The notes under the pieces are model-generated. The model saw only the letters and a list, made by a program, of their open reading frames with translations. It did no database searches and was not told the DNA's origin. From NCBI RefSeq assembly GCF_000151665.1, contig NW_013171868.1, positions 503,501 to 567,500 on the forward strand: a stretch of DNA of 64,000 nt, given 5' to 3'. This document shows positions 10,834 through 57,041 of this stretch, one piece after another; position 1 is the stretch's first letter, and the number at the start of each line of letters is the position of its first letter. Position numbers and translations under genes: made by a program. The DNA is from Blastocystis hominis (Eukaryota > Sar > Bigyra > Opalinata > Blastocystidae).

Positions 10834-10837
10834 ATGG

Positions 10838-11340
10838 AATGGGATTGGAGAAAACGTAGAATTAGAGGCGGCCAATAGCCTGCAAAGGTGAGAAACGAGA
10901 GAGGAAAATAAAGAGGTACTGATTTCACGTTGGAGGGAGGAGGCATCGGAAGAGCGCGACTGGAGTTGGAATAGCAAGAAGCTCATCTGCCACTCATCAT
11001 GGTTGATCCCCGTTTCGCCAGGACGTTCAGAAAGGACAAACGAGGAATAGGAGGAGAGAAGGGGAGCTTGCTCACCAAACAACACTCGCCAGAGAAGAAC
11101 AGCGCGGTCTGCGTGAAGTCTCTTTCGCATTCCGTCAGCCTGAGCTTTACAGGAATAGAGAAAGAGATAATTGTAGAAGGGCTATGACATAGAAAAAGCC
11201 AAAACAACCAAACTTTGAACAATGTGGGATTCTTCATTTCTTCTCTCCATGCAGGAAGGATCTGCTTGAGTTTTCCGAATGTATCGATCCTACAATGAGA
11301 TGGCAAAAAACACGAAAAACCCATAGTTTGTGGAAAGCAT
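10838..11340 (-). CDS. DCN1-like (DCUN1 domain) cullin neddylation protein
   Basis: DCN1 proteins are scaffold-type E3s that help UBC12 attach NEDD8 to cullins. Joined exons read M-L-S-T-N-Y-G, then a DCUN1/PONY domain: F-G-K-L-K-Q-I-L-P-A-W, P-F-Y-N-Y-L-F, A-V-L-L-W-R-V-L-F, I-N-H-D-E-W and a C-terminal W-P-P-L-I-L-R-F-L-Q. Introns are about 31, 32 and 49 nt. There is no in-frame stop before the 3'-end element: the gene ends Q-S-H followed by a lone T at 10838, completed to TAA by the poly(A) tail. The protein lacks the UBA domain of yeast Dcn1, like short family members. It converges with the AI-2E-like gene; predicted mRNA ends are 27 nt apart. Confidence 0.8.
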
Positions 11341-11678
11341 GTTAATATTGTTCACCGTAATAATATACATACACTCGCAGTTCATTTTGTAGCATATATA
11401 GAGAACGAGCGAATCCTACAATTTTTCTATTATTGAATGTTTACATTTTCTACATCAATCCCTAGAGAATCGAATAGACATACGACTCCTTCGAGTGTGA
11501 GTCGATCAGGATTATTTGGGTCTACTTGGAAGAATAGGTTACAACACGAACTAGCAAAGGAATGGAATAAATCAGGGATCAATGTCGTATCATCCATCTG
11601 CATTCGGAATTCCAGAATCTGCCAAGATTTTTACGAGTTCGTGTTTTCCGCAGAAATTTAATATTGGCAAGTATTTCT
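11341..11678. other. Divergent promoter region
   Basis: AT-rich 338-nt gap between the starts of the DCN1-like gene (minus) and Sec24 (plus). A short open frame at 11437-11661 has no family resemblance and is probably spurious. Confidence 0.4.
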
Positions 11679-14600
11679 ATGAATCCAGGAAATCAACCTA
11701 CTGGATCTCGTTTTAATCCATTTATTAAGCATGTAAATGAGTTTGTTTGCGAGTTATTCCTAGTCTGATCCTATTCCTTCACCCATACAGTCTGAATCGG
11801 GTCCGAATACTCCTTCTACAAATGCTTCTCCTTTTAATAGAGGTCCATCTTCTATGGTTCCTCCTCCTTCACAAATGGCTCCTCCAACGAGTTCCCAAAC
11901 CCAAAATGCACCTTATACCCCTGCATATCACCCCCAATTTGCGAATGCAACTCCTTTTATGCCAAGGTCGGGACTCTCTTATCCACCTCCTCCAGGCTCG
12001 TCTCTTCCTCCTCCACCGACATCGACTCTTCCTCCTCCTCCCGTAGGACAGCCGTCAAGCGAGCCTGGCGCGTCCCCGCTTCCCCAGGAGCAATCTAGCA
12101 CTTATTCTCACTATACGGGTACCCACGGTCGTACCGGCATCACAGCTGCGCAGCTCTACTCGCTCAACGTAATCGGGTCCGGTAGGCGCTAGACGCAAGT
12201 GGTTGATGTCCAAGAAATCCCGGTTTCCCGCCCCGCCAACCAATCCTCCGCAGAAAACGCGCAGCAGCAACAACAACAGCAACAACAACAGCAGCCTGAG
12301 GCTGCGAAAGACGCGAAAGTAGATTCTTTCATGCCTACCCTGACGGTCAGCCGCAGAAAGCGAGCAATTCGAACGACCTGATCAACCTGAACCGAATTCC
12401 GCACCCCGAAGAAGACGCGTCGCTTCGATCCTACAGCTGGAAGGACGACGACGATTGGATCAGCGTGTGCTTCCGCGTTTCCCCTGAGGCCTAGCCCCTG
12501 CCGTTCCCCACGTACCAGTACACGTTCCAAGACACGGGGATCAGCAGTCCTCGCTACATGCGGTCCACCATGCGCGTGCTCCCGCAGTCCTACTACATGC
12601 TGAACAAAACCAAGATCCCGTGCTCCGTCTTCGTCACTCCCTTCGCCGAGCCCGTTTCTCCCGTTTCTCCGTCTCACCTCCAGCACCCTCAGGAAGACCC
12701 CATCCCGCTCCTCGACGGAACCGCGGGACTGGTCCGCTGCTCGGAGTGCTCGGCGTACATGAATCCGTTCGTGCAATTCACCGACGGCGGCTACCACTTC
12801 CTCTGCAACCTCTGCGGCGCGGAGAACCCCACGCCCTCCTGGTACTACGGCACCACCAACAGCGCCGGCGTGCGCTTCGACCGCCAGGACCGCCCCGAGC
12901 TGTCCCGCGGGACCGTGGAGTACAAAGTGGGAGAGGAGTTCTGCACGCGCGCTGCGCAGCGGCCGCTTTTTGCGTTCGTGATCGATACGACGCGCGCTGC
13001 GCACCAGAGCGGCGTGTTCGACGCGGTTCTGCAGGCGCTTCGCGCGTGCGTCGAGGCGCTGCGCGATGCCCCGCGGGCGAGAGTGGGGTTCTGCGTGTTC
13101 GACACGGCGGTGCACGTGATTTCGATGCGAGTACCCGCGGGGAACGCGTGCGATGTAGAACGGACACATCCACGAGGTGCTGATGACCGATCCCGACGAT
13201 GCCTACGCAGTGATCAGCGAGGCGAACTGGCTCCTCGCGCCGGCCAGCGATGCTGAAACACTATTCCAACTGCTGGACTACATCGCGAGCAGCTACGCTC
13301 CGAGCACGCGGCCGCCTCCCGACTACGGCTGCAGCACGGCGGCGGTGCGGACGGCGATCGGCGCGCTGGCGGCGTCGGGCGGTCACGTGACGCTGATCGA
13401 GTGCTCGGCGCCGCTGCTGGGCGTGGGCCGCGTGTCGGCGTCGGAGCAGAGCGCGGTGTACGGGACGGAGGACGAGTCGTCGATGTACCTGCGGTCGCAG
13501 GACGAGGCGTACTACTCGGAGCTGGGCGTGACGTGCGCGATGGCGAGCGTGTGCGTGGACTTCGTGGTGGCGAGCAAGGAGCACGTGCACCTCGCGGAGC
13601 AGCAAATGCTGGCCAGTCAGAGCGGCGGCTCCGTGTATTTGGTGAAGGACGGCGCTGCAGGACTCGCCGAGCTGCACGCCTATCTGCAGACGTTGGTGAT
13701 CCGGGAGCACTACTGGGACGCCGTGGCGAAGCTGCGCGTGTCGGGCGGGCTGAAGGTGCAGGGCGTGACGGGGAACGGCGTGACGTCGGACGAGCAGGAC
13801 CCGATCGTGCCGATGCTGGACTGCCAGTCCTCGTTCGAATTCACGCTGGATTTCCCGAAGTACATCGAGGGAAACGACGTCTATCTCCAGTTCGCCATTC
13901 TATATCCTTTGAGGAATTGGGAGAAGGGGGTTCGGGGTCTGATGGGTCCGATTTGGGGAGTTTTGGGTCATGGTGGCCGTATTGTGATGTGTTGATTTTG
14001 ATTGGAAGAATGGTGGAACTGTGTTTTGTGGTGGTTTTATTTGTCTGTGATGCATTCATTGATGTCCTCTATTTGACTTTTTTGTGAGCATTGTTGTTTC
14101 ATATGCTGTATTGTTGTCCCCCTGATTGTCCCCCTGATTGTCCCCCTGATTGTCCCTATTATTGTCCCTATTATTGTCCCTATTATTGTCCCTATTATTG
14201 TCCCTATTATTGTCCCCTTGGTTCCTTCACGGCACCTACACGACGGACTCCGGGGAGCGTCGTCTGCGCATCTTCAACCAGCGTCTCCAGTCCACGTCCA
14301 CCTACCCTCGTCTTTTCAAGGGCCTCGACGGCGTGGCCGTGATGCTCTCCCTGGCCCGCACCGCCGCGCTCCAGCTGGACTCCACGCGCCTCCCGGACGT
14401 GCGTAGCAACTTCGAGGACACCGTGGAGACGATTCTCACGCAGTACCGCGCGCAGTGCAGCGCGTCCTCCTCCACCGGACAGCTCGTTCTCCCCGAGAAC
14501 GGAAAATTGCTCCCGCTCTTCGCCAACTGCCTCCTCAAATCCCCGCTCCTCCTCCTCAACGAGGCCTCCCGCTTCTCCCTCGACACCGTCTATCCCCGCG

Positions 14601-15224
14601 GGGACACGCGCGCCTGGGCGATCCACGTGGGACTCGGCGGAGGATTCGAGTGTAGTTCGTCTCGCAGTGCAATCCGATGCAGTTCGTGAACTTCGTGTAC
14701 CCCGCTCTCTACAAACTCGACCCCGCCAACGACGCGTGGGGCCGCGAAGACCCCGCCACCGGGTTCGTGAGCAAGCCTTCGTTCGAATTCCTCACGGAAG
14801 CGGCGCTGGATCTGGGATTCGTGTATTTATTGGCCGGCTGGCGAGGGTGAGGATTTTGTTTGCAGGGTGATGTGCAGACTGATGCTGGTGGTGAGCAATC
14901 AGGTGCCTGCAGAGGTGATGGAGAGCCTGTTCGGCGTGCGAGGCGTGACGGACGAGGCGATGGCGAACGGTTTGATGCTGCTGAGAGAAGGAGACGAGCT
15001 TTGCGAACGCGTTAACACGCTCGTGGAGGAGTTGCAGGCACAGCTTGGGTGCTACTTGCAGGTAGGAGAGGGGAGGAGGTGTGAGAGTAGCCTGCCGTCG
15101 TGATGCGAGGAACGCCGAAAGCGAGTTTGGTCATGGAGATGATGACGGAGGATCGCATTCGGAAGGAGCCGTCGTTCTCCGACTATTTGAGACATTTGCA
15201 CTCCGCGATTATCGGAAATATGTA
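11679..15224 (+). CDS. SEC24: Sec24, COPII coat cargo-binding subunit
   Basis: Sec24 pairs with Sec23 in the COPII inner coat and selects cargo leaving the ER. The N-terminus is a Pro/Ser/Gln-rich disordered region with a poly-Q run. The zinc finger C-S-E-C...C-N-L-C (about 12740-12820), the trunk (F-V-I-D-T-T-R-A-A), beta-barrel, helical and gelsolin domains follow. The C-terminus is M-M-T-E-D-R-I-R-K-E-P-S-F-S-D-Y-L with H-L-H, typical of Sec24. Small GT-AG introns of 24-32 nt break the gene (for example 12321-12352, 12470-12499, 13132-13159, 15061-15089); one near 14850 would be only 19 nt. A 334-nt intron at 13902-14235 does not obey GT-AG (separate entry). The genome has TAG at 15223-15225, but cleavage is predicted after TA, so the mRNA stop should be UAA. 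Confidence 0.9.
13902..14235 (+). other. Candidate U12-type AT-AC intron in Sec24
   Basis: Sec24 continuity (F-A-I-L then Y-T-T-D-S-G-E-R-R) requires removal of this segment. It starts ATATCCTTT, the textbook U12 AT-AC donor, and ends GGCAC with TTCCTTCAC just upstream, close to the U12 branch consensus TTCCTTRAC. The branch A lies about 6 nt from the acceptor, closer than usual. It contains no AG between 14085 and the acceptor, so a U2-type acceptor is not available. It also holds tandem TGTCCCCCTGAT/TGTCCCTATTAT repeats at about 14115-14215. Confidence 0.65.
14115..14216 (+). repeat. Tandem 12-nt repeat inside the Sec24 long intron
   Basis: Units TGTCCCCCTGAT (x3) grade into TGTCCCTATTAT (x5) before a final TGTCCCC. 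All lie inside the atypical intron, so they are removed if the AT-AC splice is used. Confidence 0.8.
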
Positions 15225-15228
15225 GCTC

Positions 15229-15236
15229 TGTTTGTT
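15229..15236 (+). terminator. GU-rich polyadenylation element TGTTTGTT
   Basis: Cleavage 4 nt upstream (after 15224) falls inside the genomic TAG of Sec24, leaving TA plus A. Confidence 0.85.
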
Positions 15237-15260
15237 CCACACAGCAACGATAATTCCTTC

Positions 15261-16850: not shown

Positions 16851-16859
16851 AGAAAAGGA

Positions 16860-17022
16860 AATGAAAATTGAATGAAAAGGGAATGAATTGAATGAATTGA
16901 ATGAATTGAATGAATTGAATGAAAAGAGAATGAATTGAATCATTGAACAATGCTCCCATTGCTTGCTTGCTTGCTTGCTTGATTGATTGATTGATTGCTC
17001 GCTTGATTGATTGATTAACCTT
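16860..17022. repeat. Tetranucleotide and related simple repeats
   Basis: AATGA/AATTG runs at about 16872-16940 are followed by CTTG and ATTG runs at about 16964-17014. They sit between two plus-strand genes and resemble the repeats at 1194, 41117 and inside the prohibitin intron. Confidence 0.75.
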
Positions 17023-17129
17023 TTCACTTCTGTTTCATTTTTCCATTTATCATTTCCTTTACCCACTCGATTCATTTCCACGGATTCTACATCGGACTTC
17101 AAACCCTTCGAATTATCCGACTTCCCCTC

Positions 17130-18015: not shown

Positions 18016-18036
18016 AATTGTACAATAGTTGTCTAT

Positions 18037-18414: not shown

Positions 18415-20142
18415 ATGAATCTTAAAGCATTCAGAACTGTCCTGGGAGGTGTACTCATTGAGCTCTCACTGGGTTCTCTTTATACGGCTGCGAACATGAT
18501 TACCTACATTATCTCTTATATTCATGTCGTGGTTGGTGACACGGTAGGTGTTGCATCGAATGCGATGATTGGCAGAGTGTAACCAACACTATGTCAGCTT
18601 GGTTGTTTGCTATTAGCATTATGGGCCAGGCGTGCTCTATGATGTTTGCTGGAAAAATTGAGGACCGTATTGGTTCGCGTTGGTGTACCCTTCTTGGGTG
18701 TGTTCTTTTTGACATTTGCGTGCTCGTCAGCTACTGGATAGCCGATAACTTCTATTTGCTGCTTGCGGTATATGGATTCCTTTTCGGAATTTGCATTGGT
18801 ATTGCTTACTCTGCCCCGATTACGATGTGTATGTGTTGTTCCCCCACCCTCTAACTCTCTAGCCATTAAGTGGATGCCCGGAAAGGGAGGTTTTGCTTCC
18901 GGCATCATCGTCGCCGGATTCGGTTGTGGCCCGCTGATTTTCAATCAGGTTCAGTCGAGCTTCATTAACCCCAACAATCTGCCGACCGTGATCGATCCGA
19001 CCGGCGCCACGACCGACAAGTACTTCCCTGCCGAGGTGGCGTCGCGTGTTCCGAACGTCTTCCTGCTGCTAACGGCGTGCTACGTGGTGCTGCAGGCGAT
19101 CGGCCTGCTGCTGGTGGTGGAGCCGACGGAGGCGGAGCTGGCGGCGATGAAGGAGCACGTGGTTCCGATCATGGGCGACCTGAAGGCGAAAAGCACCGGC
19201 TACACGCCGCGCGATTTCCGTCCGACGGTGGAGGCGACGCCGCGCGGGCAGCACGTGATCACGAGCACGGGCGCGATGGTGGACCACCCGTACAAGCCGA
19301 GCGAAGCGATGCGCACGGTGAAGTTCTGGGAGATCTGGGGCACGTTCCTGCTGGTGGGCCTGACGACCACGTTCATGTCGTCGTACTGGAAGGTGTTCGG
19401 CCAGTCGTTCATCAGCGACGACCGCTTCCTGGTGCTGGCGGGCTCGGTGTCGTCGGTGTGCAACGGCGTGTTCCGTCCTCTGTGGGGCATGCTCATGGAC
19501 AAGTGGACCTATCGCCGCGCCATGCCGTTCCTCTGCCTCTGCACGGCGCTGCTCATCGGCACGCTCTCCCTCACCGCCAAGCTCCCGCAGGCGTTCTTCT
19601 TCCTGTGGATCTGTCTGATCTATCTCTGCATGGGCGGGTTCTACGCGATGTTCCCCGCCTACACGTCGCTGTCCTTCGGAACGCTCTACCTCACCAGCAA
19701 CTACGGCTACGTGTTCACCAACCAGTTCATCTCGGCGTTCTGCTCCGCCTTCCTCGTCAACGCCTTCATCACCATTCTCGGCAACACGGGAATCACCATC
19801 TTCCTCGCCATCATGGTGCTCCTCGCGCTCCTCCTCTCCGCCTTCGGAAAGAAGTGGGATTATCACGTGGGTCGTCGCGAGCTCCACTCGCTTTCTCCCA
19901 CCGCAACGCTCCCCGCCTCCGTCACCCTGCCTCCCGCCGTCGCCGCTGCTGCCGCCAACACGCCTGCCACGCCCGCGAAGGAGGTTGTGGATGTGCCGAA
20001 GGTGGAAACCGTGGAAACCAAGGAGGAAACCAAGGTGGAAACCGAAGCCAAGGTGGAGGTCGCTGGCGAGGAGAAGAAGGAAGGAAGCAACGAGAATCAT
20101 GGAGAAGTGAAGGTGGAAGTCGAGAGCGCCAAGCAGGCGTAA
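18415..20142 (+). CDS. Major facilitator superfamily transporter (oxalate/formate antiporter-like)
   Basis: Starts M-N-L-K-A-F-R-T-V-L-G-G. Helix 1 carries the L-x-L-G-x-x-Y pattern typical of the OFA/monocarboxylate branch of MFS. Introns of 32 nt (18543-18574 region) and 34 nt (about 18829-18862) rejoin the frame. About twelve membrane spans follow, including I-K-W-M-P-G-K-G-G-F-A-S-G-I-I-V-A-G, which is characteristic of OFA-like carriers. The C-terminus is a long Glu/Lys/Val-rich cytosolic tail (V-E-T-K-E-E-T-K-V-E-T repeats). The sequence after about 18900 is strikingly GC-rich compared with the first exons. The substrate is probably a small organic anion, which is inference. TAA at 20140-20142. 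Confidence 0.85.
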
Positions 20143-20177
20143 TGGTGGTTGATGTGATTTTGGTGTTTTTAGTGGAT

Positions 20178-20185
20178 TGTTTGTT
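20178..20185 (+). terminator. GU-rich polyadenylation element TGTTTGTT
   Basis: 3'-end signal of the MFS gene; cleavage after 20173. Confidence 0.8.
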
Positions 20186-20187
20186 GC

Positions 20188-20195
20188 AAGAAACA
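20188..20195 (-). terminator. Variant polyadenylation element TGTTTCTT
   Basis: One mismatch to the consensus. Cleavage 4 nt upstream leaves A-A-A-T, completing TAA for the small minus-strand gene; otherwise that frame would run antisense through the MFS tail. Confidence 0.55.
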
Positions 20196-20199: not shown

Positions 20200-20626
20200 A
20201 TTTGGAGCGACGGGCCACGAAACTAATCACATCTTCGATGTCCTCGGAGGACAGACGCGCTTGGTCGGTTATCTGCTGAACCCACTGCCGACTATCCACA
20301 CGATACAATTCTCTGTAGTTGCTCACCAATTCACAGTGCGTTCGAAGCGAATCACAAATTTCCTACAAACCTCACCAAAGGCACGGAGGTCCCCACATTT
20401 ACAGTTTGCAAATACTGGCGCGTCAACTGGGTCGTGCGTTCGATGCTTTCGTCGGTCGTTGCCTGGGGATCGCCCATAATGCTGGTGACTTCCCTCACAA
20501 TATCGAGCAACTGCACCACCTTCTATTTCTGAGCGATTTCGCAAAAGTGCGGACATCTTCCGTCTCCTTCAAGTCTTTCAAGTCCTTCTCGATAGAAGAA
20601 GCACCTGGAGCAGGGTTCGGTTCCAT
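20200..20626 (-). CDS. Small alpha-helical protein, stop codon made by polyadenylation
   Basis: ATG at 20626 (M-E-P-N-P-A-P-G-A-S-S-I-E-K-D). Two introns (32 nt; 40 nt) join about 118 residues that look wholly helical (K-V-V-Q-L-L-D-I-V-R-E-V-T-S-I-M-G, then R-E-L-Y-R-V-D-S-R-Q-W-V-Q-Q-I). The size and heptad pattern recall small Mediator head subunits (MED11/MED22), but I cannot claim that. The frame ends F-V-A-R-R-S-K plus a single T exactly 4 nt before TGTTTCTT. Its mRNA end lies 26 nt from that of the convergent MFS gene. Confidence 0.5.
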
Positions 20627-33056: not shown

Positions 33057-33064
33057 AACAAACA
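33057..33064 (-). terminator. GU-rich polyadenylation element TGTTTGTT
   Basis: Cleavage 4 nt upstream leaves A-A-G-T, so the T becomes the first base of TAA for the adjacent minus-strand gene. Confidence 0.8.
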
Positions 33065-33068: not shown

Positions 33069-33521
33069 ACTTATTCTTTTCAGCTTTAAAGCTACAGTCC
33101 CCTCCGTAGCCGTCATAGAAGCGCTGCTTTGTGCTTCTTATCGAAAACCGATGTCCGCCGCTGTTCTGGCATTCATCCCCGTAGAATCGCATCGAGCACC
33201 CGTCCTCCAAGCTGCAGCTCTGAATAAACCCCGGCTTTTCTTCCTGCTCTTCCAGCAGCAGCTTGTTTTCCCTCTCATACTCCTTGTAAATGCGGTTGAA
33301 CTCGCGGCGGCATCCTAGCCAAGCCAAGCCGACCGAGCTAGTGGCCCAGAAAGGAGTTCTATTGTTGATAATAAGCCAAGAATTTACAGTAAAGTCATTA
33401 ACTGAAAGGTGTGGCGCATGGAATCTCCCTAGACATCAAACGAACGGTACAATAGGCGAACAGAAATGGACTTAAAAAACGGAAACATACGATTCAGTAT
33501 CCAGGATCCATCGTCGAACAT
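33069..33521 (-). CDS. Small uncharacterised, possibly membrane-bound protein; stop made by polyadenylation
   Basis: About 130 residues from a likely ATG at 33521 (M-F-D-D-G-S-W-I-L-N-R). Introns of 33 and 29 nt flank a 14-nt microexon (33388-33401). The result is a hydrophobic segment (L-L-T-P-F-W-A-T-S-S-V-G-L-A-W-L-G-C) followed by a charged helix (R-R-E-F-N-R-I-Y-K-E-Y-E-R-E-N-K-L) and a Cys/Gly-containing tail (Y-G-D-E-C-Q-N-S-G-G-H). The frame ends A-E-K-N-K and a T exactly 4 nt before the element; read on, it would pass through the element. Additional 5' exons are possible. No family recognised. Confidence 0.5.
33388..33401 (-). other. 14-nt microexon
   Basis: Bounded by a 33-nt and a 29-nt GT-AG intron. 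It encodes the codons joining F-D to L-M-T-L-L and restores the frame of the gene ending at 33069. Confidence 0.5.
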
Positions 33522-34008
33522 ACTAATTAGAGAAGAAGATAGAAATCCAAATTCTGAGCACAGCGCACATGCTCCCAAAACAAAGCAAACGCTAATGATT
33601 AGAACACGAAATGGACCCGTACACCATAGAAGTGTCAATAGCACCGTGTTTCGCGATCACTTCGAAAAATTTTGCATTGCTGATATGTCTAAAGTTATGT
33701 CGCTGCTTTTCGTAGGGTTTACGGATCAACGTATCAAAAACAACATCGTTCACTATACAGTTACGACAAATCGCTTTCTACTCACTCAGTACTCCCACTG
33801 GCTTCTTTTCCTTTTCATGGTTCCCAATAGGAGTTGTTACGATCAAGCGGCATGAAATGGCAACGAATTTATTTAATTGAGCAGGTCGAAATTGTCGTAG
33901 AGATATCGAATTGATTCTCGCAAACATATTCTAACTGCAGACAAAAAGTCGTGTTGTGTTAGATCTGTTTTTTACTTATTTCTTTCTTTCATTTATTTAT
34001 ATATTATT
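33522..34008. other. Divergent intergenic region
   Basis: Upstream of both the minus-strand gene at 33069 and the plus-strand gene at 34009. A plus-strand frame at 33466-33855 overlaps it but is antisense to a spliced gene and lacks signals. Confidence 0.35.
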
Positions 34009-35679: not shown

Positions 35680-36729
35680 ATGAACTCTGGAAAGTTAATT
35701 CAGAGTAAGGTGCAGGAGACATCTGCCGAGCTGAAGTCTCTGTTTAATGGAGAAACGGAATCTGCAGCCGATCGAATTCGGCGTCTTCAGATTATGAGTG
35801 ATATAAATTATGGAATCGATAAGAATGTAAGGAGAGTGTAGACTCGTGCTAAGAGCGTAGTTCACTGAAAAAGAGACTGCGGAAGAACCGCTGGGAGATT
35901 TATATGATTATGACTCCTATTTGGAAGAGAAAGAAAAGAAAGAAGAGCAGGAAGAGAAAAAGACAAAAGTGAAGAAACAAGTATGGATTGTTGCCTTGTA
36001 ATGAGTTGTAGAGTAAATATATTGCAATTTTAAAGCAGCGCGCTGAAGAGCGAAAACGAGAAATGGATATCATCTACGAAAAGTACCGATTTTACTTTGT
36101 TTTTTGTTTAATTTATAGAAATCGAATCAAAGAAAGAGAGAAGGAGGATGCACTCTACGCAGGGAAAGAAAAGTTCATCACGTCCGCTTACAAGAGAAAG
36201 CTGGAAGCGGATCGCAAATGGATGGAGGAAGTGAGAAAGAAAGAATTGGCGAAGGGAAACAAGGGTCGCTTCCTCGCCAACATGATGAACTCACGCGCTG
36301 ACGAAACAGAGGAAACGGTGGAAACGGTGGAAACGATGGGAACTGGAGAAGCGAAAGGAAAAGTGGAAAGCAAAAACGAAGATAAGGCGAAGGCAGCATT
36401 AGGGAATGCGAAAAAGGAGGAGGAGGTGGATAACGATGACGAGTTCGATGGATTCATTTTGGCTCCGCCAGAGGAACAAATTAAGGGAAATGTGAGCGAG
36501 GGAGATAGTGATGCGGGCATCATCCGGGCTCCTGACCGAGAGAAACGAGAGCGGTGTGGAAGTGAAAGTAAAAGTCATCAAAGAGAAAGGGAACACAGCA
36601 GAAGTCGCAGTCGCAGTCGAAGTCGAAGTCGAAGTCGCAGCGACAGCAGAAGTCGAAGTCGAAGTCGAAGTCGCAGCGACAGCAGAAGTCGAAGACATCG
36701 ACACCATAAGCATCGCAGACATCATCACT
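35680..36729 (+). CDS. NSRP1: NSRP1/CCDC55-like nuclear speckle splicing regulator with RS tail
   Basis: Introns of 34, 31 and 36 nt (about 35828-35861, 35981-36011, 36083-36118) join one frame. The N-terminal DUF2040 core has Y-D-Y-D-S-Y, S-K-Y-I-A-I-L-K-Q-R-A-E-E-R-K-R-E, and F-I-T-S-A-Y-K-R-K-L-E, the family signature. An acidic middle and a C-terminal RS/His-rich tail (R-S-R-S-R-S dipeptides, about 36590-36690, then H-H-K-H-R-R-H-H-H) follow. The protein is expected to work in pre-mRNA splice-site choice. The frame runs to C-A-C-T, where polyadenylation 4 nt before TGTTTTTT makes TAA; read on, it would overlap the next gene antisense. Confidence 0.78.
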
Positions 36730-36733: not shown

Positions 36734-36741
36734 TGTTTTTT
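36734..36741 (+). terminator. Variant polyadenylation element TGTTTTTT
   Basis: One mismatch to the consensus. The 4-nt spacing gives a T plus AA stop for the NSRP1-like gene. Confidence 0.55.
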
Positions 36742-36743
36742 TA

Positions 36744-36751
36744 AACAAACA
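36744..36751 (-). terminator. GU-rich polyadenylation element TGTTTGTT
   Basis: 3'-end signal of the TFIIA gamma gene. It lies only a few bases from the element of the convergent NSRP1-like gene. Confidence 0.85.
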
Positions 36752-36755: not shown

Positions 36756-37180
36756 ACAACTTGGGTGCAAGGGTCGAAAAGAATTTTGCTGTCTGCTCCG
36801 TGTAACTCTCACTGCCTTCAACATCCATACACCAATTTAGTAAAGAAAAAGACCAAGTATCGTACAAGCGCTTGTAAAACTGAATATCTCCCTTCAAATT
36901 ACTATCTCCAATTGATTTCTCACTCGTAACTGTGCCCTAGGTAATTCATTTCGCCTCCTACTCAGTTCTTGTGACATCGACTACAATAAAGGATATAAAA
37001 CGAATACCCCACATTATCAAACTTCAACATAACCAATTCCTTCTGCTCCTCCGTGATCTTCCCTTCCTGCACCATCTTCGTCAACGCGCTATTCAGCGAG
37101 CTCCCCAACTCCGAAAATCGGTACACCTTCCTAATCCTCACATCCTCTGTCCCCACGCCCCACGGTACCACCGCCGACAT
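36756..37180 (-). CDS. GTF2A2: TFIIA gamma (small) subunit
   Basis: General transcription factor IIA small subunit, which stabilises TBP on DNA. The N-terminal helical bundle reads Y-R-F-S-E-L-G-S-S-L-N-S-A-L, then M-V-Q-E-G-K-I-T-E-E-Q-K-E-L-V-M-L-K-F-D. The C-terminal beta-barrel strand has K-G-D-I-Q-F-Y-K-R-L-Y-D-T-W-S-F-S-L, the equivalent of the family's Y-R-F-C-D-N-V-W-T-F. The splices around 36960-36900 and 36850 are not fixed. The frame ends L-A-P-K-L plus a single T, with TGTTTGTT exactly 4 nt further, so the UAA is made by polyadenylation. The start (37180) lies 19 nt from the end of the upstream dipeptidase gene. Confidence 0.78.
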
Positions 37181-37194: not shown

Positions 37195-37198
37195 ATTC

Positions 37199-38804
37199 AT
37201 TGACTCAACTTCTCCAGCGCCTTCACCACCACCTTATAAAACCTCGGCACCGTCTCGATCTCGAGTCTCTCCTCCGGACTGTGCGGGTTCAGCACGGTCG
37301 GTCCGATGGACACGCAATCAATCATCGGGTACTTCTCCAGGAAAACGCCGCATTCCAGCCCCGCGTGGATCGAATACACGCGCGGCTCCACGCCCACCGC
37401 CTCGCGGTACGCCGCCACCATCGCCTTCGTCAGCGGCGAGCTCTCCTTCGGCTCCCACGCCGGATATCTACAAAATGAAACGCTCGAAACGGGGAAACTC
37501 GGATTTCCGCGGGGATATTGCCATGCCGCAGAGATCGGCCAGACAGCGCAGACGGCCGTACATCCAGTCGAGCTGCGATGAAACCGACGACCGCACCGAC
37601 ACCACGAAGCCGACCTCCCGCGGGGAACTCTGCGCAATGGCGCATGTCAATGATGTCTCGACATCGGACTTCACCGCGGGGGAATAGCGCTGGACGCCGA
37701 AGGGACACACGTTGAGGAAGTGGAGCAGGCGGCGCGACGCATCGTCATCAATGGGCGTTTCATCGACGGGCGTTTCATCGGTCGGTTTCGTTTCGATTTC
37801 GAGTTTTGCCGCGGGTTCCGTGCGCTGAAACTCCCGCCGGAAGGCGTCGAACCCGCGGGAAATCTCGGTCTCGACCTGTCGGATTTCGTCGGTATTAACC
37901 GCGATTTCGACGACGCATTTCCGCGGGATGGCGTTATCCGCGGTTCCGCATCGGATCGCCACCACGCGGATCGGCGCGTTAACCGCGGTAAGCAGGCGGC
38001 CCATCACGTGAAGCGGATTGGCGCGTCCCACGTCGATGTCGCAACCCGAGTGTCCCCCGCGGAAGTCGTTGAGGGTGACGCGGAGAACCGCGGTTTTGGG
38101 GGCGGGGGAGCGGGTGACGGGGAGCGTGCAGTCGACGGTGAAACCCCCGGCGCAGCCGATGCAGAGCGCGTTTTCCTCCTCTGAGTCGACGTTGATGAGG
38201 TAGGGAGAGCGCAGGAGGCCCGGCTCGAGCTCGAGCGCGCCGAACATGCCGGTCTCTTCGTCTCGCGTGATGAGGACTTCGAGAGGACCGTGCTTGAGAG
38301 AGGCGTCCGATAAGATGGCGAAACAGGTCGCGACACCGATGCCGTCGTCGGCGCCCAGGGAGGTGCCGGTGGCCATGAGCCATTTGTTGTCCACGATACG
38401 GGGAGTGAGAGGGTCTGTCTCGAAGTTGATCACCACATCGTCGTTCTTTTGGACGACCATGTCCATGTGGCATTGTAAGCAAATGGAAGGCTTGTTTTCC
38501 AAACCTAAAAGGGTAACGAGCAATTTCAACAAATACCAGGATAAGCCTTCTTGCGAATCAGCAGATTTTCGCCCTTGTCCACATACGTCTCACAGTTCAG
38601 ATCCTCTGCCTGCTGCTTCAAGAAAGCCAAAACTTTCTTGTGGCGGAATCGCTCCCCGTCATCGTTTGATCCTCGAGGAACTTGTGTCATGGCAAGCATG
38701 TATTTCCAAACAGAAGTTGGCTTCGGAAGAAGAGAAAGCATCTCTTCACAATACCTAGATAGTATTCCTCTTTCCAAATCCAACTTTGGCAGTATGACTG
38801 GCAT
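37199..38804 (-). CDS. M20-family aminoacyl-histidine/cytosolic dipeptidase (PepD-like)
   Basis: Two-zinc metallopeptidase of the PepD branch. The N-terminus has P-K-P-T-S-V-W-K-Y and T-Q-V-P-R-G-S, standard for PepD. Metal and catalytic motifs are present: L-Q-C-H-M-D-M-V, G-A-D-D-G-I-G-V-A, D-E-E-T-G-M-F-G-A and G-G-H-S-G-C-D-I, plus a C-terminal I-H-A-G-L-E-C-G. Introns of 32 nt (about 38503-38534) and 31 nt (about 37468-37498). An acidic D-E-T-P-V/I repeat interrupts the dimerisation/lid region near 37750-37780, echoing the D-E-T-P repeats in DIS3. Genomic TGA at 37197-37199 is replaced by TAA through cleavage after its T. Cytosolic peptide turnover is the inferred role. Confidence 0.88.
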
Positions 38805-41181: not shown

Positions 41182-41189
41182 AACAAACA

Positions 41190-41197
41190 AACAAACA
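41190..41197 (-). terminator. GU-rich polyadenylation element(s), overlapping copies
   Basis: AACAAACAAACAAACA at 41182-41197 contains three overlapping AACAAACA copies on the plus strand; they mark the 3' end of GNL2. Confidence 0.65.
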
Positions 41198-43843: not shown

Positions 43844-46800
43844 ATGGTGGAAAGCAAGAAGAATAAGCAAGTCTCTTCTCGTTTATCGATCCTCGATATC
43901 ATATCCTCTTTCGATTGAGCCAGTCATTCTTAACTTGCCATATTTTTATCTCAACAAACCAGATACGGCAGCATGCACTCCTGTATTCAATATGGAAGTA
44001 CTTTCAAGTAGATTCTGGATGTCATTCATCTGCTGTCTTCTCTCAGTATTATCTATCATGGCCGTCAACACGATCATTCAATATATGCCGCTCATCTTTC
44101 TAATGCAAGCAGAAAAATCGCAAGGCGATGTATCTTTTTTTGTGCGTGCTGAAAGTTAAAGATCGACTTTATCGTCAAGGCCAAGAATACGACCAATCCC
44201 TATTTGCGTTACACGGTTATCCAGAATCTCCTCTCCTCTCCAGCACTCTATGACCATAAAAAGAGCGCAGAAATATTAAAAGTGGGAGTTCATTCTATGT
44301 TACGAGTCCAGTCTCTCGCAACAGCGCCTCGACAGATGTATGTTGGTTGGATATATAGATCGGATAGTGAAGATTGTGCAGAGCAACAACAAAATGTGTG
44401 CGTCGCTCCTATTCTACAATTTAGAGTGCGTTCTGCATCGAAAATCCAAACTCAGCATTGTGCTCCTCTATTATTTGCCAAGAAAATGGAATGTATTCCA
44501 CCATTCTTGTACTCGACGACAAAAAGGAGCAAACAATCGGATGGGGGCGTGGATACAGCGCCACAGGCGATCCAATCGAGAAGTTCACGCCTCTCCAGCC
44601 CAATGAAGTCGTGCTGTCAAGCACACTCGCCACCTCGTTGAATCTTCGTGATGGAGACATGGTGTATGTGAAGCTGAATCTACCGTCTACGTTCGCAACA
44701 ATCGTAGAAGGGGAAGAATCGGATTTGGCATTGTATTTTTTGTGATCGTTGAGCACTTATTCACAAGATTTCAGACAGGTATCAATGCTACCTTTTCTAG
44801 AATAGTGAGAATTAGTCAGAATATGCATGTTGGCTTGTGTTGGATGATAGTAAGTAGAACAAACTCGCAAACAATGTTGAAAACTATGCCATCTTTGATG
44901 CGGCTACCGATGCCTCGCTCCCTACAGATATTCTGCAGGGTGTTTTCGCTTCCACTGGCAAGTCCTTCGAGTTTGTGTATCCTGTCACAAGCTCTCTCGA
45001 CTTTCTGAGTCTATTCAGTGATCAAGTACAATAATAATTGTGGTGTGAATACATTGGATAGATCGGAGTGAATATGCCGGAAAGCGAGAAAATCAACCAC
45101 TACAGCCAATCCCGCTTTGAAAACATTCAAGAGTCATTATCACTCTATGCCTCGGTGATCAAGTACGTGTATCTTGCTTTCGTTCTATTCAGTTATCAAC
45201 TTGGATTCTCACTGATTCAAACAGAAACTCCGCTATTATCAGCACTCTCCCAACATGGAAATACAACCATGTACTTGTCTTTGATCACTGATCTTCTTCT
45301 CCTATTGCTGCTTTACTTATCATCCAGTCTCCTTTACTACTTGACCAAAATCCTTGTGAATCCTATGCTTGCTTCCTTCACTTTCAGGTGCATAATCGAT
45401 TGGCAGACTATCGCACAATGTTTCAAATAGGGAGTAGTAAAGCAGCAATTGCGTAATCCGCATGGAAATAATATTGTTTTAGATGGGTTATTCTGCTTCA
45501 AGTGTTACAATACTCACTTCTTGCTACGATCCTGGGAATTCTGATTTGTTATGTTGCCTCCACTTTCATCCTTTTAAGAATCAGGGAGTCTGCGCGATTT
45601 TCTTACACTTCCTGTCATCGGAGCTCCATCTGTCTATTCCTGTCTCATTCACTGTCAAAACAATACTCTTAGCCATCTTTCTGGGAATTGTAGTTCCTGT
45701 CGTTACGGTTCTACCTGTCATTTACCAGCTCTTTCAAGAAATGGAGCGATCTGTCCACTCAGATGGCAATCAAGTGATTGAATATGAAATCCACACCGCA
45801 AAAGAGAAACCGTTAATATCCTATTTCATAACAACGATTTGCCTCATGGTTGTGGTTTGTGGAACAGCGATTTATTACTTCCTTCCTTTGGGATTCATCA
45901 GCAATGATATGACCGTGAGCATTCTCTTGCTTATTCATTCATTCATAGATCGTTTTCTATGTGTTTATGCTCATTCTCATTCTGTTCATCGTGGGACTTG
46001 TTCTCCTTGTTCTCCCGATTCTTCATCCCTTCTCCCGAATCATCCAATACATCTGCGGCTTGTTCTGCTCCAGAGGAGTCTGCATCTATTCGCGTTTTTC
46101 TATTCGGAACAACCACAAACGAATTCATTCCATCCAGCTCGCGATTCTCTTTGGCTACTCCCTGATTCTTTTCATTTCAACCATTGCTCAGTCGCAAACT
46201 TCCCTCCTTTTCATCAATCTGAAATACTACTACGGCTCTGCCATTAGTTTTTCGACTTCTCCCGCGGATCCGAACTCCGTTTCCTCCCTCGTTTCACAAA
46301 TGGAGCGAGATCCCATGCTGTCCTCTCTCACATTTGACTGGATTTCAAATCCGATTCTCAACGAAGACACTTCGTTCCCCGTTCTTTCTTCGATCGGTCG
46401 TGTTGTTGAGCGTCCTGCTCGTCTGTTCCAATTGGAATACTCTTTGATTTGTAGTCTCGCTGTTTCAGACGAGCTCTTCACAACACTGTTCTCTGTGTGG
46501 ATTGGAGACAATGCAGCGCAGCTCAACCAAGCGATTTCCTCTTCCTCCCTTCCGAATTCTCCAACCATTTCAGCCATTTTCCCTTCCAATTTGAAAGACG
46601 TCTTCTACTCAGACCTTGATTCCAGCGAATTCAAACTCCTCAAAGACGATCAGCAGTTCTCCATTCGGCCACTCGTTTCGACTCGTTGGTTGTCGTACTT
46701 TCTTTCCTGCTTCAACATAGTCCTTTAATCTCCTTTTCTCCACCTCTCACGTACGTCAACGATGGTCCCTCGCCTCTTCTCTCTTCTCTTTCCGAGTTCA

Positions 46801-47448
46801 GCAAACTCTCTTCAAACATCACAGTGGACTCGGTGTACATCAAAGTGCCTGGGCAGGACGAATCACTCCCAATCAACGAAATCGAGCGCATCGTTGATTA
46901 CCTAGCATCCAACTATCCCTCCATTAACGTGAAAACGATCATCAGCGAATACAAAGTTCATTCATTTCGTCCATGAGTTGATGTAGACACTTAAGCCTCT
47001 GTGGGCGCTTTTAGAATATCTCTTCCTTGCAATCACAATCATAGCGAACTTGATCACCGTCTTTTCGATCGTGGCAAACGTGTCTATTTTTGTGGAGCAA
47101 CATGCTGTCGAAATAGACATCTTGCGATCCATAGGTTTCACTTCAAAGCAGGTTTTTTGGACTTACGAAGTGATAACGTTTGCCATTGTCGCATCTCCGT
47201 TATGCTTGGGAATTTTGTGCGGAATTCTTGTTAGTTTTCTTATATGCAAGCAAGAAGCTATGATTATCGATATTCCACTCGGTTTTTCGGTGAGCATTCC
47301 AATATCCTTTTTGTGCAAAATTGAAGTCCTTTACAGCATTCTCTATGCATATGTGTTGCTGTGTGTATTTTAGGACAATTTCTTACGACATTGATTTCTG
47401 TAAACAAGGTTTTGTCGCATCCAATAGCAGCTATGTTAAAGAGCTCTT
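43844..47448 (+). CDS. Large FtsX-like/MacB-type permease
   Basis: ABC-transporter permease-type membrane protein. An N-terminal helix (F-I-C-C-L-L-S-V-L-S-I-M-A-V-N) is followed by a large extracytoplasmic MacB-like part (I-G-W-G-R-G-Y, P-N-E-V-V-L-S-S-T-L-A, N-L-R-D-G-D-M-V-Y-V). Several FtsX helices come next (I-K-Y-V-Y-L-A-F-V-L-F near 45160; V-K-T-I-L-L-A-I-F-L-G-I-V near 45660; W-A-L-L-E-Y-L-F-L-A region near 47010). A C-terminal F-V-E-Q-H-A-V-E-I-D-I-L-R-S-I-G-F-T matches the FtsX domain core. About twelve introns are needed; not all are fixed, and the first exon (ATG at 43844) is tentative. The frame ends A-A-M-L-K-S-S plus T, completed to TAA by polyadenylation. No partner ATPase gene lies nearby. 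Related eukaryotic proteins exist in ciliates and amoebae; substrate unknown, lipid-related by analogy. Confidence 0.65.
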
Positions 47449-47452: not shown

Positions 47453-47460
47453 TGTTTGTT
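47453..47460 (+). terminator. GU-rich polyadenylation element TGTTTGTT
   Basis: Cleavage after 47448 gives TCT-T plus AA, the stop codon of the FtsX-like gene. Confidence 0.8.
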
Positions 47461-48576: not shown

Positions 48577-49373
48577 ATGGATTTTGACCACAGAGAAAAG
48601 GGAAGAACAGGTGCAGGTCGTGTTACGAGCCAACAGCTGCAAATTCAAAGAAGAGACCGACTTATCAAATTGGCAAAGGAAACTTCGGATATTTCCAGAG
48701 TGAGATTGTTTTAAAAACCCTTCTTACTTGTAGAACCCGTATTTACTCCGAAACCATTTGGGCAAATTTGAGTGCCGATTATGTCTTACAGTACACAGCA
48801 CAGAAGCAAATTTCCTCGCTCACACGCAAGGAAGAAAGCATCAAGCCAACTTAGCTCGCCGACGTTCATATTTTGGTTTTCTTGATGATATGTAGAGGCA
48901 ATGGACGAAAAGAGAAGTCAGCCGATGCCTCTCGTTCCTCCCTCGATTCCTAAGGTAATTCACCATCCTCGTATTAAAATCGGTCTTCCGGCCTATCGAG
49001 TCGACGATCTCCGCGACTCTTCTACTGGCCAACGCGGTCTTCTCTTCGAAATCGAATATCCCCAAATCCAGCCAGGCCTGCAGCCTCGCCATCGTTTTAT
49101 GAGTGCATTCGAGCAGAAAGTGCAAGCGCCTGATAAGAACTTTCAATATTTAATTTTTGCTGCGGCTCCTTACGAGAATATCGCGTTCAAAATCCCCAAC
49201 AAAGAGATCGACAAAGGCGAAGGTCGCTTTATTACGAGCTGGAACACGACGACCAAAGTGTTCCAATTGCGAATGTTCTTTAAAACCGACGAACAGAGCG
49301 AAGCGGAGAAGAAGAGGAGAGAGGCGAGCCACACGGCGCCATCTCTTCGCATCGAGTATTATGGACGACTGTA
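48577..49373 (+). CDS. SF3A2: SF3A2 (SF3a66/Prp11), U2 snRNP subunit
   Basis: Splicing factor of the SF3a complex in 17S U2 snRNP. Starts M-D-F-D-H-R-E-K-G-R-T-G-A-G, the invariant N-terminus. Introns of 34 nt (about 48700-48733) and 32 nt (about 48868-48899). The matrin-type zinc finger reads N-H-L-G-K-F-E-C-R-L-C...H-S-T-E-A-N-F-L-A-H-T-Q-G-R-K-H, then P-R-I-K-I-G-L-P-A-Y-R-V and W-N-T-T-T-K-V-F-Q-L. The long Pro-rich tail of animal SF3A2 is absent. The frame ends E-Y-Y-G-R-L plus TA; cleavage 4 nt before TGTTTGAT supplies the final A. Its 3' end is 12 nt from the stop of the convergent acidic gene. Confidence 0.92.
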
Positions 49374-49377
49374 CGTT

Positions 49378-49385
49378 TGTTTGAT
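49378..49385 (+). terminator. Variant polyadenylation element TGTTTGAT
   Basis: 4-nt spacing after CTG-TA creates the UAA of SF3A2. The identical variant ends the mitochondrial carrier gene. Confidence 0.7.
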
Positions 49386-49531: not shown

Positions 49532-49563
<32 letters not shown>

Positions 49564-50298: not shown

Positions 50299-50316
50299 AG
50301 AAGAGCATCACAATCG

Positions 50317-52937: not shown

Positions 52938-52953
52938 CAACAAATAAATTTTA

Positions 52954-52961
52954 AACAAACA
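52954..52961 (-). terminator. GU-rich polyadenylation element TGTTTGTT
   Basis: 3'-end signal of prohibitin. It lies 17 nt upstream of the next gene's ATG on the same strand. Confidence 0.8.
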
Positions 52962-52977
52962 CACAACCCTTAGAAGA

Positions 52978-54469: not shown

Positions 54470-55190
54470 TTTATAGGGGAAATGAATAGTTGAATTGAAG
54501 AAAGCGATTAAACTAGGGAAATGGAGAAGTCTTCCAGGTTATTATGATATGCTTGATTTATGCACAGTAAGCAATGACGAGGTGTGAGCGAATATATAGA
54601 CCCCGATAAAGAGCGAAAAGGGCCTCATTTGGAAACATGCGAATAGGAAAGTGAGAAGACTTTTTAGAACATATGAATGGAGAAGTCAGAGTTTATACTT
54701 GCAATGGCCAGGCTTCTACATCACTTGCTGAAAAATGGAGGGTAACTTGTGAATTCACGCAAAAATGCTAAATGATATTGCAAGAAGATATGAATAATTT
54801 TGTATTTCTGTGATGTCGAGTCTTTGAATGCATGGTAATTAGGTCATCGTAGGATTGGTTGTAGAAAATGTTCAGGTCTGTGCACATATGGCTCTATGGA
54901 AGCTCACATTGTTTAGCGATCATAATCATTTATGATCCTGTGCTTGTTACAGGGATGTGCACTGCTACTTTATATACGAATGTATATATACATATACCCT
55001 GAGAGTTGACCCCATATAATTATCTTTTATACTTATCGACTCAATCAATCTACACTAGACTATTCGTTCTTATAGTTCCGAGAGATATAAACCATAAACC
55101 AATCATCAGTAGTCATTCATTATCACATACTTTCTATTCATTTGTACTTTCATTCATTCATTCTACAACAATTCAAACCACTCAGTATTC
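54470..55190. other. Intergenic region
   Basis: About 720 nt between the prohibitin start and the MCTS1 3' end. AT-rich; contains short frames (for example ATG at 54673) without support and no recognised RNA gene. Confidence 0.4.
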
Positions 55191-55198
55191 AACAAACA
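55191..55198 (-). terminator. GU-rich polyadenylation element TGTTTGTT
   Basis: 3'-end signal of MCTS1; predicted 3' UTR about 10 nt. Confidence 0.75.
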
Positions 55199-55212
55199 AA
55201 TCCAACTAGAGG

Positions 55213-55920
55213 CTACTCAAGGTTCAGACACTGCCACAAACCATCGTTCAGATAATTTCCCAAGAAAATACCAATACCCTCGTTCTTTTCCTTGCTACAC
55301 ATCACCACATCTTTTTATCCTCACATCTCCGCAGACGACATCGCCATCTCACCCACTGCCAGCGGATTCTCCTTTCCTTCAGCAAAAATCGCCTATCTCG
55401 CACAACTTTGTTCAGTGCCTACCACTGGCTCGCCCTTTTCCAAACCGTCAGGAAGACGGCCTCCAGGAGAGGTAATTCCACGACACATAATATTGGCTCC
55501 TCCAAGAACAAACTTAATGGCACCCTTATCGACCTGAACGCTCTTCATCATATCAGGAGCTAGCGGTAACATAACAAATACAAAGCGAACCGCGAAGAAG
55601 CACACGCATGACTGGGAAGAAGGGACCATCACGCACAGAATAGAAAAGAGGCTTATTATTCACAATTACAATCTCGATGTGATTCTGGCTACAACAGTTA
55701 GACCAATTCCGATCGGAAGCTACCATTTCGCTACCACCACGTTTTCCTTCTTGGGGAACAGCTCATCTGCATACTTCTCGAATTCCGGATACTGCTCAAT
55801 GATCGCTTTCCGAATACCGCGTCCTGCGGATGCTTTTACTTGACTCTTGGAAATGACGAATTCATTGGGGTAGAATCTATCGATGATCCATTAGTATACA
55901 CAAATATACTTCTTAAACAT
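55213..55920 (-). CDS. MCTS1: MCTS1/MCT-1 translation factor
   Basis: Partner of DENR in reinitiation and in recycling of 40S-tRNA complexes. Starts M-F-K-K-F-Y-P-N-E-F-V (33-nt first intron). The N-terminal DUF1947-type domain has [16 protein letters not shown] and [14 protein letters not shown]. The C-terminal PUA domain has [24 protein letters not shown] and Y-L-N-D-G-L-W. Introns of 33, about 36, 31, 33 and 30 nt. TAG at 55213-55215. Full family length. Confidence 0.93.
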
Positions 55921-55999
55921 TGTTTCGCTGTGTAGGGAAAAAGAAAATGGCATTCTATTTCTCGAAAGGAGTACTCCTGGTTTGCCAATTTCGTAATTG

Positions 56000-57037
56000 A
56001 TGCGGAGTGGAGAAGCAAAGAAAAACGACCACCTGATGTTCAAAAGGTGGCTAATTTGTGCTTTTACGTCTTCGTTTACCGAGTCTGGTATACAACCTTG
56101 TTCTACGTTCTAAATTGAATAGTCACTCAGCCTTTTGACTTGGCAAAGACTCGACTTCAGCTTCAAAACACTGCTAATGTTATGAATGGAGTGAAAACAC
56201 CGTCGAGAGGCCTTTGGAGGACGATGACAGGTGTTGTTCGAGAAGAAGGTTTTTGGGCACTCTTTGGAGGTGTTGGACCCGCAGCATTGCGTCAAGTGAT
56301 TTATGGAGGTATTTGCACAGGTTTCTACAAGCCGCTGCGTCGTCTAATGTATCCGGGAGAAGAAAACCAAAACCTCAGTTTCCCCAAACGTCTGTGTGTT
56401 TCCCTAACGACGGGAATCACTGGACAAACGTGTTCCCTTCCTTTAGACCTCATTAAAGTCCGCATGCAAGCAGATGGACGTTTGATCATGATGGGAGAAA
56501 AGCCACGATACAAGAATGCGACCGATGCTTTTTTCACGATTATCCGGGAAGAAGGGGTTTCTGCGTTCTTCACGGGTGTTTCTCCCACCCTGATTCGAGC
56601 TGGACTCCTCACAGTGGGTGGAATCGCCTGCTACGACAGCAGCAAGGAGTGGATCATGCGCCACTTCCACACATCGGATTCGACTGCGATGGGTCGTGTC
56701 ATAAACTGCACGCTCGCGTCTATTTACAGCGGTACCCGTGCACTTTCGGTGCGAAATAGGTTTTGTTTCGACATGCATGAGCAATCCATTCGACGTAGTG
56801 AAAACACGCATGATGGAGCAGCACCAAGACCGTCCTCTCTACAAATCCAGCTTCGACTGTTTCATCAAAGTGGTTGTCAACATTTCCCTCCATCCTAGAC
56901 TGTGCGGTACGAAGGCGTTCTCGCTCTCACCAAGGGCTTCGGAGCCACGATGTGTCGCATGGCGCCCTGGCAGTTCATTTTCTATCAGCTGGGCGAGTTC
57001 CTCAGTATGACGTTCCTTGGCGAAACCCTAACGAACT
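56000..57037 (+). CDS. Mitochondrial carrier family protein (UCP/dicarboxylate-like)
   Basis: Inner-membrane metabolite exchanger with three repeats. Repeat 1: T-Q-P-F-D-L-A-K-T-R-L-Q-L-Q. Repeat 2: S-L-P-L-D-L-I-K-V-R-M-Q-A. Repeat 3: S-N-P-F-D-V-V-K-T-R-M-M. These are followed by G-L-W-R-T, A-F-F-T-G-V-S-P and Y-E-G-V-L-A-L-T-K-G-F. The motifs resemble the oxoglutarate/dicarboxylate/UCP branch; substrate unproved. Introns of 35 nt (about 56086-56120), 28 nt (about 56732-56759) and 29 nt (about 56871-56899). A genomic TGA lies at 57046-57048, but it is inside the TGTTTGAT element. Cleavage 4 nt upstream leaves AAC-T, so the mature stop is an earlier UAA after L-T-N. Confidence 0.85.
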
Positions 57038-57041
57038 ATTC

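Follow-up and report, generated by a model that had tools for sequence, protein, structure and literature searches.

Stop codons finished by the polyadenosine, or poly(A), tail of the mRNA are already known in Blastocystis ST7, where the mechanism was first described in the genome assembly from expressed sequence tags (ESTs; Klimes et al. 2014, PMC4159000). The same paper reports that the motif TGTTTGTT, with up to two substitutions, is found exactly 4 nt downstream in ~96% of 2,419 genes, that poly(A) creates the stop codon in 372 of the 2,419 (~15%) on EST evidence, and that an encoded UAG or UGA is turned into UAA in 90 cases; it also mentions artificial introns inserted at such gene ends by the original annotation and proposes a short CSTF2 orthologue as a possible reader of the downstream element (PMC4159000). 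Elsewhere, mutation of the motif together with two nearby thymines has been reported to lower expression of an ST7 reporter 324-fold (PMC6395660), and U has been described as the usual last base at the position of poly(A) attachment (PMC4360255). Here, we examined a window of 64,000 nt from the same genome (contig NW_013171868.1, positions 503,501 to 567,500 of the forward strand), in which an original prediction, made from the letters, had placed poly(A)-created stops in eight genes, and in which poly(A) motifs also stand back to back between converging genes. Genome-wide counts refer to the Blastocystis ST7 reference of 18.7 Mb and 40 contigs (G000), where the window corresponds to C40:503501-567500.

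Our results make it highly probable that the eight genes are nuclear ST7 genes whose UAA is finished by the poly(A) tail; the same holds for the gene of an M20 peptidase (37199) and possibly for a frame that ends in TAG (15224). The cut in the pre-mRNA would fall exactly 4 nt before a U/G-rich downstream element (with the sequence UGUUUGUU or one close to it). Tail addition would then supply the one or two A needed to turn a final U or UA into UAA, and the resulting mRNA would carry no 3' untranslated region (3'UTR). The eight genes, with motifs, are the following.

10838..11290, minus strand: DCN1-like (cullin-binding) gene, last three exons 11290-11189, 11144-10929 and 10879-10838, ending ...LQSH + T
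10826..10833, minus strand: poly(A) motif TGTTTGTT of the DCN1-like gene, exact match
20200..20626, minus strand: gene of a small helical protein, exons 20626-20555, 20522-20403 and 20362-20200, an open spliced frame ending ...RRSK + T
33069..33596, minus strand: gene of a predicted membrane protein, exons 33596-33491 and 33428-33069, ending ...AEKNK + T
33057..33064, minus strand: poly(A) motif TGTTTGTT of the membrane protein gene, exact match
36119..36729, plus strand: NSRP1-like gene, last exon, ending ...HRRHHH + T, Pfam NSRP1_N at E 2e-10
36756..37180, minus strand: TFIIA gamma subunit gene, exons 37180-37013, 36980-36962 and 36929-36756, ending ...LAPKL + T
46729..47448, plus strand: FtsX-like permease gene, exons 46729-46955, 46987-47289 and 47337-47448, ending ...AAMLKSS + T
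47453..47460, plus strand: poly(A) motif TGTTTGTT of the FtsX gene, exact match
48577..49373, plus strand: SF3A2 gene, exons 48577-48699, 48734-48863 and 48896-49373, ending ...YYGRL + TA
49378..49385, plus strand: poly(A) motif TGTTTGAT of the SF3A2 gene, one mismatch
56120..57037, plus strand: mitochondrial carrier (uncoupling-protein-like) gene, exons 56120-56731, 56760-56872 and 56899-57037, ending ...ETLTN + T
57042..57049, plus strand: poly(A) motif TGTTTGAT of the carrier gene, one mismatch

The spacing claimed by the original prediction was found at all eight positions, each of which carries the motif 4 nt past the last templated base. The motif is exact at four sites (10838-, 33069-, 36756- and 47448+) and has one mismatch at the other four, namely 20200- (TGTTTCTT), 36729+ (TGTTTTTT), and 49373+ and 57037+ (TGTTTGAT), and all eight lie within the two substitutions allowed by the published rule; the motif and spacing of this rule, which the prediction had cited for about 15% of Blastocystis genes, thus fit every site (PMC4159000). 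In all eight models the spliced frame, with GT..AG introns of 26-62 nt, reaches the site without a stop and leaves in frame a T in seven genes and TA in one (SF3A2), so that cleavage followed by poly(A) would yield UAA in each case, as had been claimed. For DCN1, the 33069 gene, NSRP1, FtsX and the carrier, the model is restricted to the 3' portion. At SF3A2, an overlapping one-mismatch register, CGTTTGTT at 49374-49381, gives no stop, and only the downstream register gives UAA. Motif matches with at most one mismatch are enriched (133 versus 62.4 +/- 7.8 in 100 shuffles), and T is the last templated base at 62% of 87 exact motifs in a 264-kb sample; with this preference at the cut position, a lone T before the tail may have been easily reached in evolution. 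A random window position and frame would give such a stop with a chance of 0.12, and, since the eight sites had been chosen because they fit, no probability is quoted for the set.

That the window belongs to the nuclear genome in which the mechanism was described is supported by the published Rho GTPase example. A search with the pattern CTVM + T + four bases + TGTTTGTT gave one match, at G000:C36:539278-539302 on the minus strand, and the example was published at FN668683.1, 539586-539266 (Klimes et al. 2014, PMC4159000). The match agrees with the published location and lies in the assembly that contains the window, which places the eight genes among nuclear Blastocystis genes.

The description of the eight products as recognisable proteins held for six, which have Pfam matches above cut-off, and did not hold for the 20200 protein, with a sub-threshold Med11 match, or the 33069 protein, for which a Pfam scan of the spliced model gave no match. 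Likewise, the expectation that protein families would end at the predicted places was borne out for DCN1, FtsX, SF3A2 and the carrier, whose predicted ends lie exactly at, or no more than 8 residues from, the family end; for TFIIA-gamma and NSRP1, profiles or homologues stop short of it, and the 20200 and 33069 proteins have no usable homologue. The DCN1 model, with introns of 44 and 49 nt (GT..AG), matches Pfam Cullin_binding at E 3.4e-11 over profile positions 1-116 of 118, ending at residue 116 of a 119-residue partial model, and six of its seven PDB matches are DCN1-like chains, each aligned to residue 116; the top-ranked PDB match, a designed repeat protein, was discarded as spurious. The partial FtsX model of 213 residues (introns of 31 and 47 nt; Pfam FtsX E 1.8e-10) reaches profile position 119 of 120 at its residue 205. 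SF3A2 (Pfam SF3A2 E 4.6e-36) was compared at the C-terminus with 4 of 1,133 homologue matches. P0001 (78% identical, 243 residues, equal to the model) stops at the same residue; in P0002 and P0003, which share 99% identity with the query over 65% of its length, read-through adds 9 and 27 residues past the predicted end. The mis-extension by gene callers that had been foretold was thus seen for SF3A2, the gene of the eight in which it was checked, and read-through that differs in length between near-identical sequences suggests that the downstream stop is not fixed. Among the carrier homologues (Pfam Mito_carr E 7.2e-53), 15 of 37 matches were aligned; P0129 (99%) ends at LTN, its second exon being spliced one codon earlier than in our model, and it and two annotated Blastocystis sp. 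Blastoise proteins (P0141 and P0142) finish at the carrier's aligned residue, without the read-through YSV. These are the three that end there, P0135 differs, and the others stop short of the end.

TFIIA gamma (Pfam TFIIA_gamma_N E 2.9e-10; two 32-nt introns) aligns with TOA2 in PDB over residues 18-108 of 120; its eight homologue matches all span 42-47% of the query, and the one compared, exon 1 continued into the intron, was uninformative on the C-terminal end. The NSRP1 frame is open for 199 codons within the 600 bases examined, and its C-terminus is a repetitive RS/H tail whose end no family fixes. We consider the TFIIA-gamma and NSRP1 gene assignments well supported, and those of the 20200 and 33069 genes less so. 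The 20200 protein is perhaps Med11, judging by a match at E 0.037, under the Pfam cut-off, and the 33069 frame is open for 122 codons up to its lone T.

The window also holds conversions of encoded stops. The M20 peptidase frame has 149 residues and matches the Peptidase_M20 profile up to position 205 of 206, which it reaches at residue 145, leaving 4 residues ahead of the stop. A second candidate frame, at 15224, has no Pfam match.

37197..37646, minus strand: M20 peptidase gene, last-exon frame; encoded TGA 37199-37197 would be cut after T (predicted mRNA end 37199), T+AA giving UAA
37187-37194, minus strand: poly(A) motif of the M20 peptidase gene, exact match
15223..15236, plus strand: candidate frame ending TA|G; a cut after TA (15224) would make the encoded TAG UAA; motif TGTTTGTT at 15229-15236

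Other exact-motif sites in the window come after ordinary encoded stops. At 7925 and 9131 on the plus strand, two neighbouring frames of 322 codons with similar C-termini, papain-like by eye, have an encoded TAA 7 and 15 nt before the cut, leaving 3'UTRs. On the minus strand, the exact motif can be read in three registers, offset by 4 nt, in a tandem TGTT run at 41182-41197. The encoded TAA of the long frame lies ~60 nt upstream, so the choice of register would not matter there; such runs might need to be avoided where poly(A) creates the stop.

Two of the eight genes converge on each other, and a third converges on a gene of the MFS family; in both cases the motifs of the two strands abut.

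36734..36751: motif pair, TGTTTTTT at 36734-36741 on the plus strand (NSRP1) and TGTTTGTT at 36744-36751 on the minus strand (TFIIA-gamma), gap 2 nt
20178..20195: motif pair, TGTTTGTT at 20178-20185 on the plus strand (MFS gene) and TGTTTCTT at 20188-20195 on the minus strand (20200 helical gene), gap 2 nt

The predicted mRNA ends of NSRP1 and TFIIA-gamma, at 36729 and 36756, are separated by 26 nt. The MFS gene, whose open reading frame at 18742-20139 matches MFS_1, has an encoded TAA at 20140-20142 and a predicted mRNA end at 20173. A third tail-to-tail pair, of the one-mismatch motifs TATTTGTT on the plus strand and TGTTTGTG on the minus strand, was observed at 59204-59220 with a gap of 1 nt.

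Pairs of this kind are widespread in the genome. Exact TGTTTGTT-N(0-30)-AACAAACA occurs at 81 places, compared with 3 for the pattern read backwards and 10 for the opposite order. With N(0-4) there are 52, where the control gives 0 and about 3 are expected by chance from the motif counts of 3,329 and 3,403 published for ST7 (PLoS Biol 2017, PMC5608401); among the 52, two tandem runs are still represented by their innermost pair, and by hand count these 52 fall as 8, 17, 19, 5 and 3 at gaps of 0, 1, 2, 3 and 4 nt. When one mismatch is allowed, 153 pairs are found genome-wide at gap 2 versus 10 at gap 10. The 264-kb sample holds no exact pair; with at most one mismatch per motif and gaps 0-4, 3 pairs fall in the window and 6 in the C1 sample, against expectations of 0.07 and 0.18 per gap. 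Some backward controls are unclean (the opposite-order search gives 19 versus 10, the A-box search 36), as the words overlap the motif register or its partner, and weight is therefore placed on the gap-10, gap-20 and opposite-order comparisons. We set aside mere crowding of genes as the origin of the palindromes: of the 81 exact pairs, 29 (81 less 52) have gaps of 5-30 nt, above the 15.7 expected if all are kept (P 0.002) and near chance (19 versus 15.7, P 0.24) once ten places with tandem TGTT runs or a doubled motif are removed by hand, a removal that drew on 50 of the 81 places.

Base composition around single motifs suggests why two signals would abut so often. At the 87 exact sites, A makes up 41-52% at +10 to +15 from the motif start and 24% at +16, forming a 6-nt box with sharp edges, and genome-wide TGTTTGTT-NN-AAAAA occurs 91 times, versus 13 with a 20-nt gap and 0 for AAAAA-NN-TGTTTGTT. 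The preferred palindrome gap lays the partner's AACAAACA over this box, which we propose as the reason. No box was seen at 420 one-mismatch motifs, so it may belong to strong sites only, and its generality is weakened. We also considered whether the box at ordinary sites reflects a degenerate antisense motif, and set this aside since an antisense cut would favour A at +22, where A is only 32%.

On this evidence, we somewhat favour the view that a single palindromic module, TGTTTGTT-N(0-2)-AACAAACA, serves as a bidirectional poly(A) signal for both genes of a convergent pair. The A-rich 6-nt box would sit 2 nt after each downstream element and would be provided by the partner's element on the opposite strand, each half thereby supplying the other's box; packed back to back, the two signals would make up a palindrome of 16-20 bp by which both mRNAs are probably ended, at points 24-28 nt apart; in some cases, such as NSRP1/TFIIA-gamma and perhaps the locus L044, neither gene would have a stop codon of its own. 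In a bolder version, the dyad may be read as DNA by a dimeric roadblock protein. In the 52 exact modules at gap 0-4, signals stand on both strands and both predicted cut sites lie outside the pair. Of their 104 sides, 71 have T at the cut position; 24 of the 52 modules have it on both, against 24.2 expected if both sides work; if only one side worked, with 30% T assumed on the idle side, this would have P 3e-5.

Twenty of the 52 modules, all outside the window, were read with 400 bases per side, and 30 single-exon frames from them were scanned against Pfam. Eighteen frames of at least 100 codons reach the predicted cut; seven give a stop there, one of which (papain-family) does so by a cut inside an encoded TGA, and eleven do not. 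The seven have six Pfam matches at E <=0.01, four above cut-off, and three of these four (RPN1, PLP-binding protein, papain) match to no more than 12 residues from the end; the eleven have three matches, one above cut-off (ribosomal L31e), none of which reaches to within 30 residues of the end. Another 16 frames of at least 95 codons have an encoded stop; 12 were scanned as such, of which seven matched at E <=0.01, and a 13th coincides with one of the stop-giving frames. Above-threshold Pfam matches lie on one side of 11 of the 20 modules and on both sides of none, so bidirectional use is something that we infer. In the window, the genes are clear on both sides of the NSRP1/TFIIA-gamma pair and on one side of the MFS/20200 pair. 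At L044 (G000:C8:282800-283600), a gap-0 module is flanked by frames of 121 and 129 codons, each ending in a lone T, with a sub-threshold collagen-repeat match at best.

Several observations weigh against poly(A)-created stops in the eight genes and lend some credit to other explanations. A genomic stop lies close downstream in three of them, 3 codons on for the carrier, where an in-frame TGA falls within the motif, and 9 for FtsX and SF3A2, which would suit genes that use the next in-frame genomic stop while the motif either stands there by accident or directs cleavage at a point beyond. We find this very improbable, since the extensions enter or cross the poly(A) motif itself and are 66-92 codons long for DCN1 (77), the 20200 gene (92), TFIIA-gamma (78) and NSRP1 (66), the last two each running antisense across the other gene, with 15 codons for the 33069 gene; moreover, the SF3A2 extension is 9 versus 27 residues in near-identical sequences and is missing from P0001, and three carrier homologues finish at the predicted residue. 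The homologues are not of one voice, as SF3A2 homologue P0004 (61%) has a different, shorter tail and carrier homologue P0135 reaches the end with a different C-terminal stretch, and P0001 and P0129 are themselves gene models of unknown prediction method. A further terminal exon, reached by a short intron that skips the site, with the true stop beyond, might be easily missed where introns go down to 26-34 nt; it is hardly credible, however, when the DCN1 and FtsX family profiles are exhausted at the predicted end, SF3A2 and carrier homologues end at the predicted site, and artificial introns of this type are reported to have come from the original annotation (Klimes et al., PMC4159000). Four of the eight motifs carry a mismatch, and one-mismatch words are common (420 over 528 kb of single strand, ~1 every 1.3 kb), so the sites at 20200, 36729, 49373 and 57037 could be chance matches with the real 3' end elsewhere, the more so as the 20200 protein lacks a convincing family and the NSRP1 tail a family-defined end. 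This is unlikely given that the SF3A2 and carrier ends agree with homologues and that 36729 and 20200 belong to back-to-back pairs, a kind strongly enriched genome-wide. Against the proposed cuts it also counts that a codon-usage scan of the 87 exact sites did not single out spacing 4 (at 4 nt a stop is created in 6 of the 9 sites with an open frame, at 6 nt in 6 of 11), although 43 of the 87 sites were scored, with a small training set and an AT-rich C1 sample (GC content 0.41) with 10,787 N, and that the predicted cut position in each of the eight genes rests on sequence.

The palindromic pairs, for their part, could be RNA hairpins or copies of a repeat and not bidirectional poly(A) signals. 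They are inverted repeats, and shuffling the downstream part of 20-nt stretches from ordinary exact motifs makes their folds slightly less stable (-0.61 versus -0.81 kcal/mol unshuffled; 30 of 87 sites more stable unshuffled), a difference so small that a hairpin was set aside as the reason for either the A-rich box or the palindrome. Since the preferred gaps of 0-2 nt are too short for a loop unless stem ends unpair, and T stands on both cut sides as often as two working sides would lead one to expect, we hold this explanation to be rather unlikely; copying of one repeat was rejected, as no two of the 20 module loci share more than 6 18-mers.

With poly(A)-created stops as the preferred explanation, the analysis recovers from raw sequence alone a highly unusual way of expressing genes that was already known, and it supplies corrected gene ends for SF3A2, DCN1, TFIIA-gamma, FtsX and the carrier; for SF3A2, a wrong protein end is present in a public protein database. 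If the modules are confirmed, they would be a measure of 3'-end compaction, with two genes parted by little more than two 8-nt signals, and would predict an auxiliary A-rich box in the Blastocystis poly(A) signal. We found no description of the palindromic module or the A-rich box in literature passages naming both Blastocystis and TGTTTGTT (supplements excluded), nor in related titles and abstract openings, a scope outside which subscription papers and preprints lie.

In comparison with the poly(A)-created stops described in Blastocystis, the window genes come from the same ST7 genome and share the motif, the 4-nt spacing and the completion to UAA (Klimes et al. 2014, PMC4159000; PMC5608401), and the published class of UAG or UGA turned into UAA has its counterpart at 37199 and perhaps at 15224 (PMC4159000); there is no difference in kind. 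Mitochondrial mRNAs of mammals and dinoflagellate cox3, cited in the same paper, likewise have U or UA completed to UAA by one or two A of the tail (PMC4159000). Unlike these, the window genes are nuclear and spliced, and would be cut at a sequence-directed site. The U/G-rich element downstream of the cut also resembles the GU-rich elements recognized by CstF-64-type proteins, but the Blastocystis element is highly conserved and stands at an exact distance, and a CSTF2-type reader for it is a proposal only. Bidirectional poly(A) signals between convergent genes are known from SV40 and yeast, where one short region ends the transcripts of both strands. Unlike those signals, two copies of the 8-nt downstream element in Blastocystis abut as a palindrome, mostly with a gap of 0-2 nt, leaving 24-28 nt between the predicted mRNA ends.

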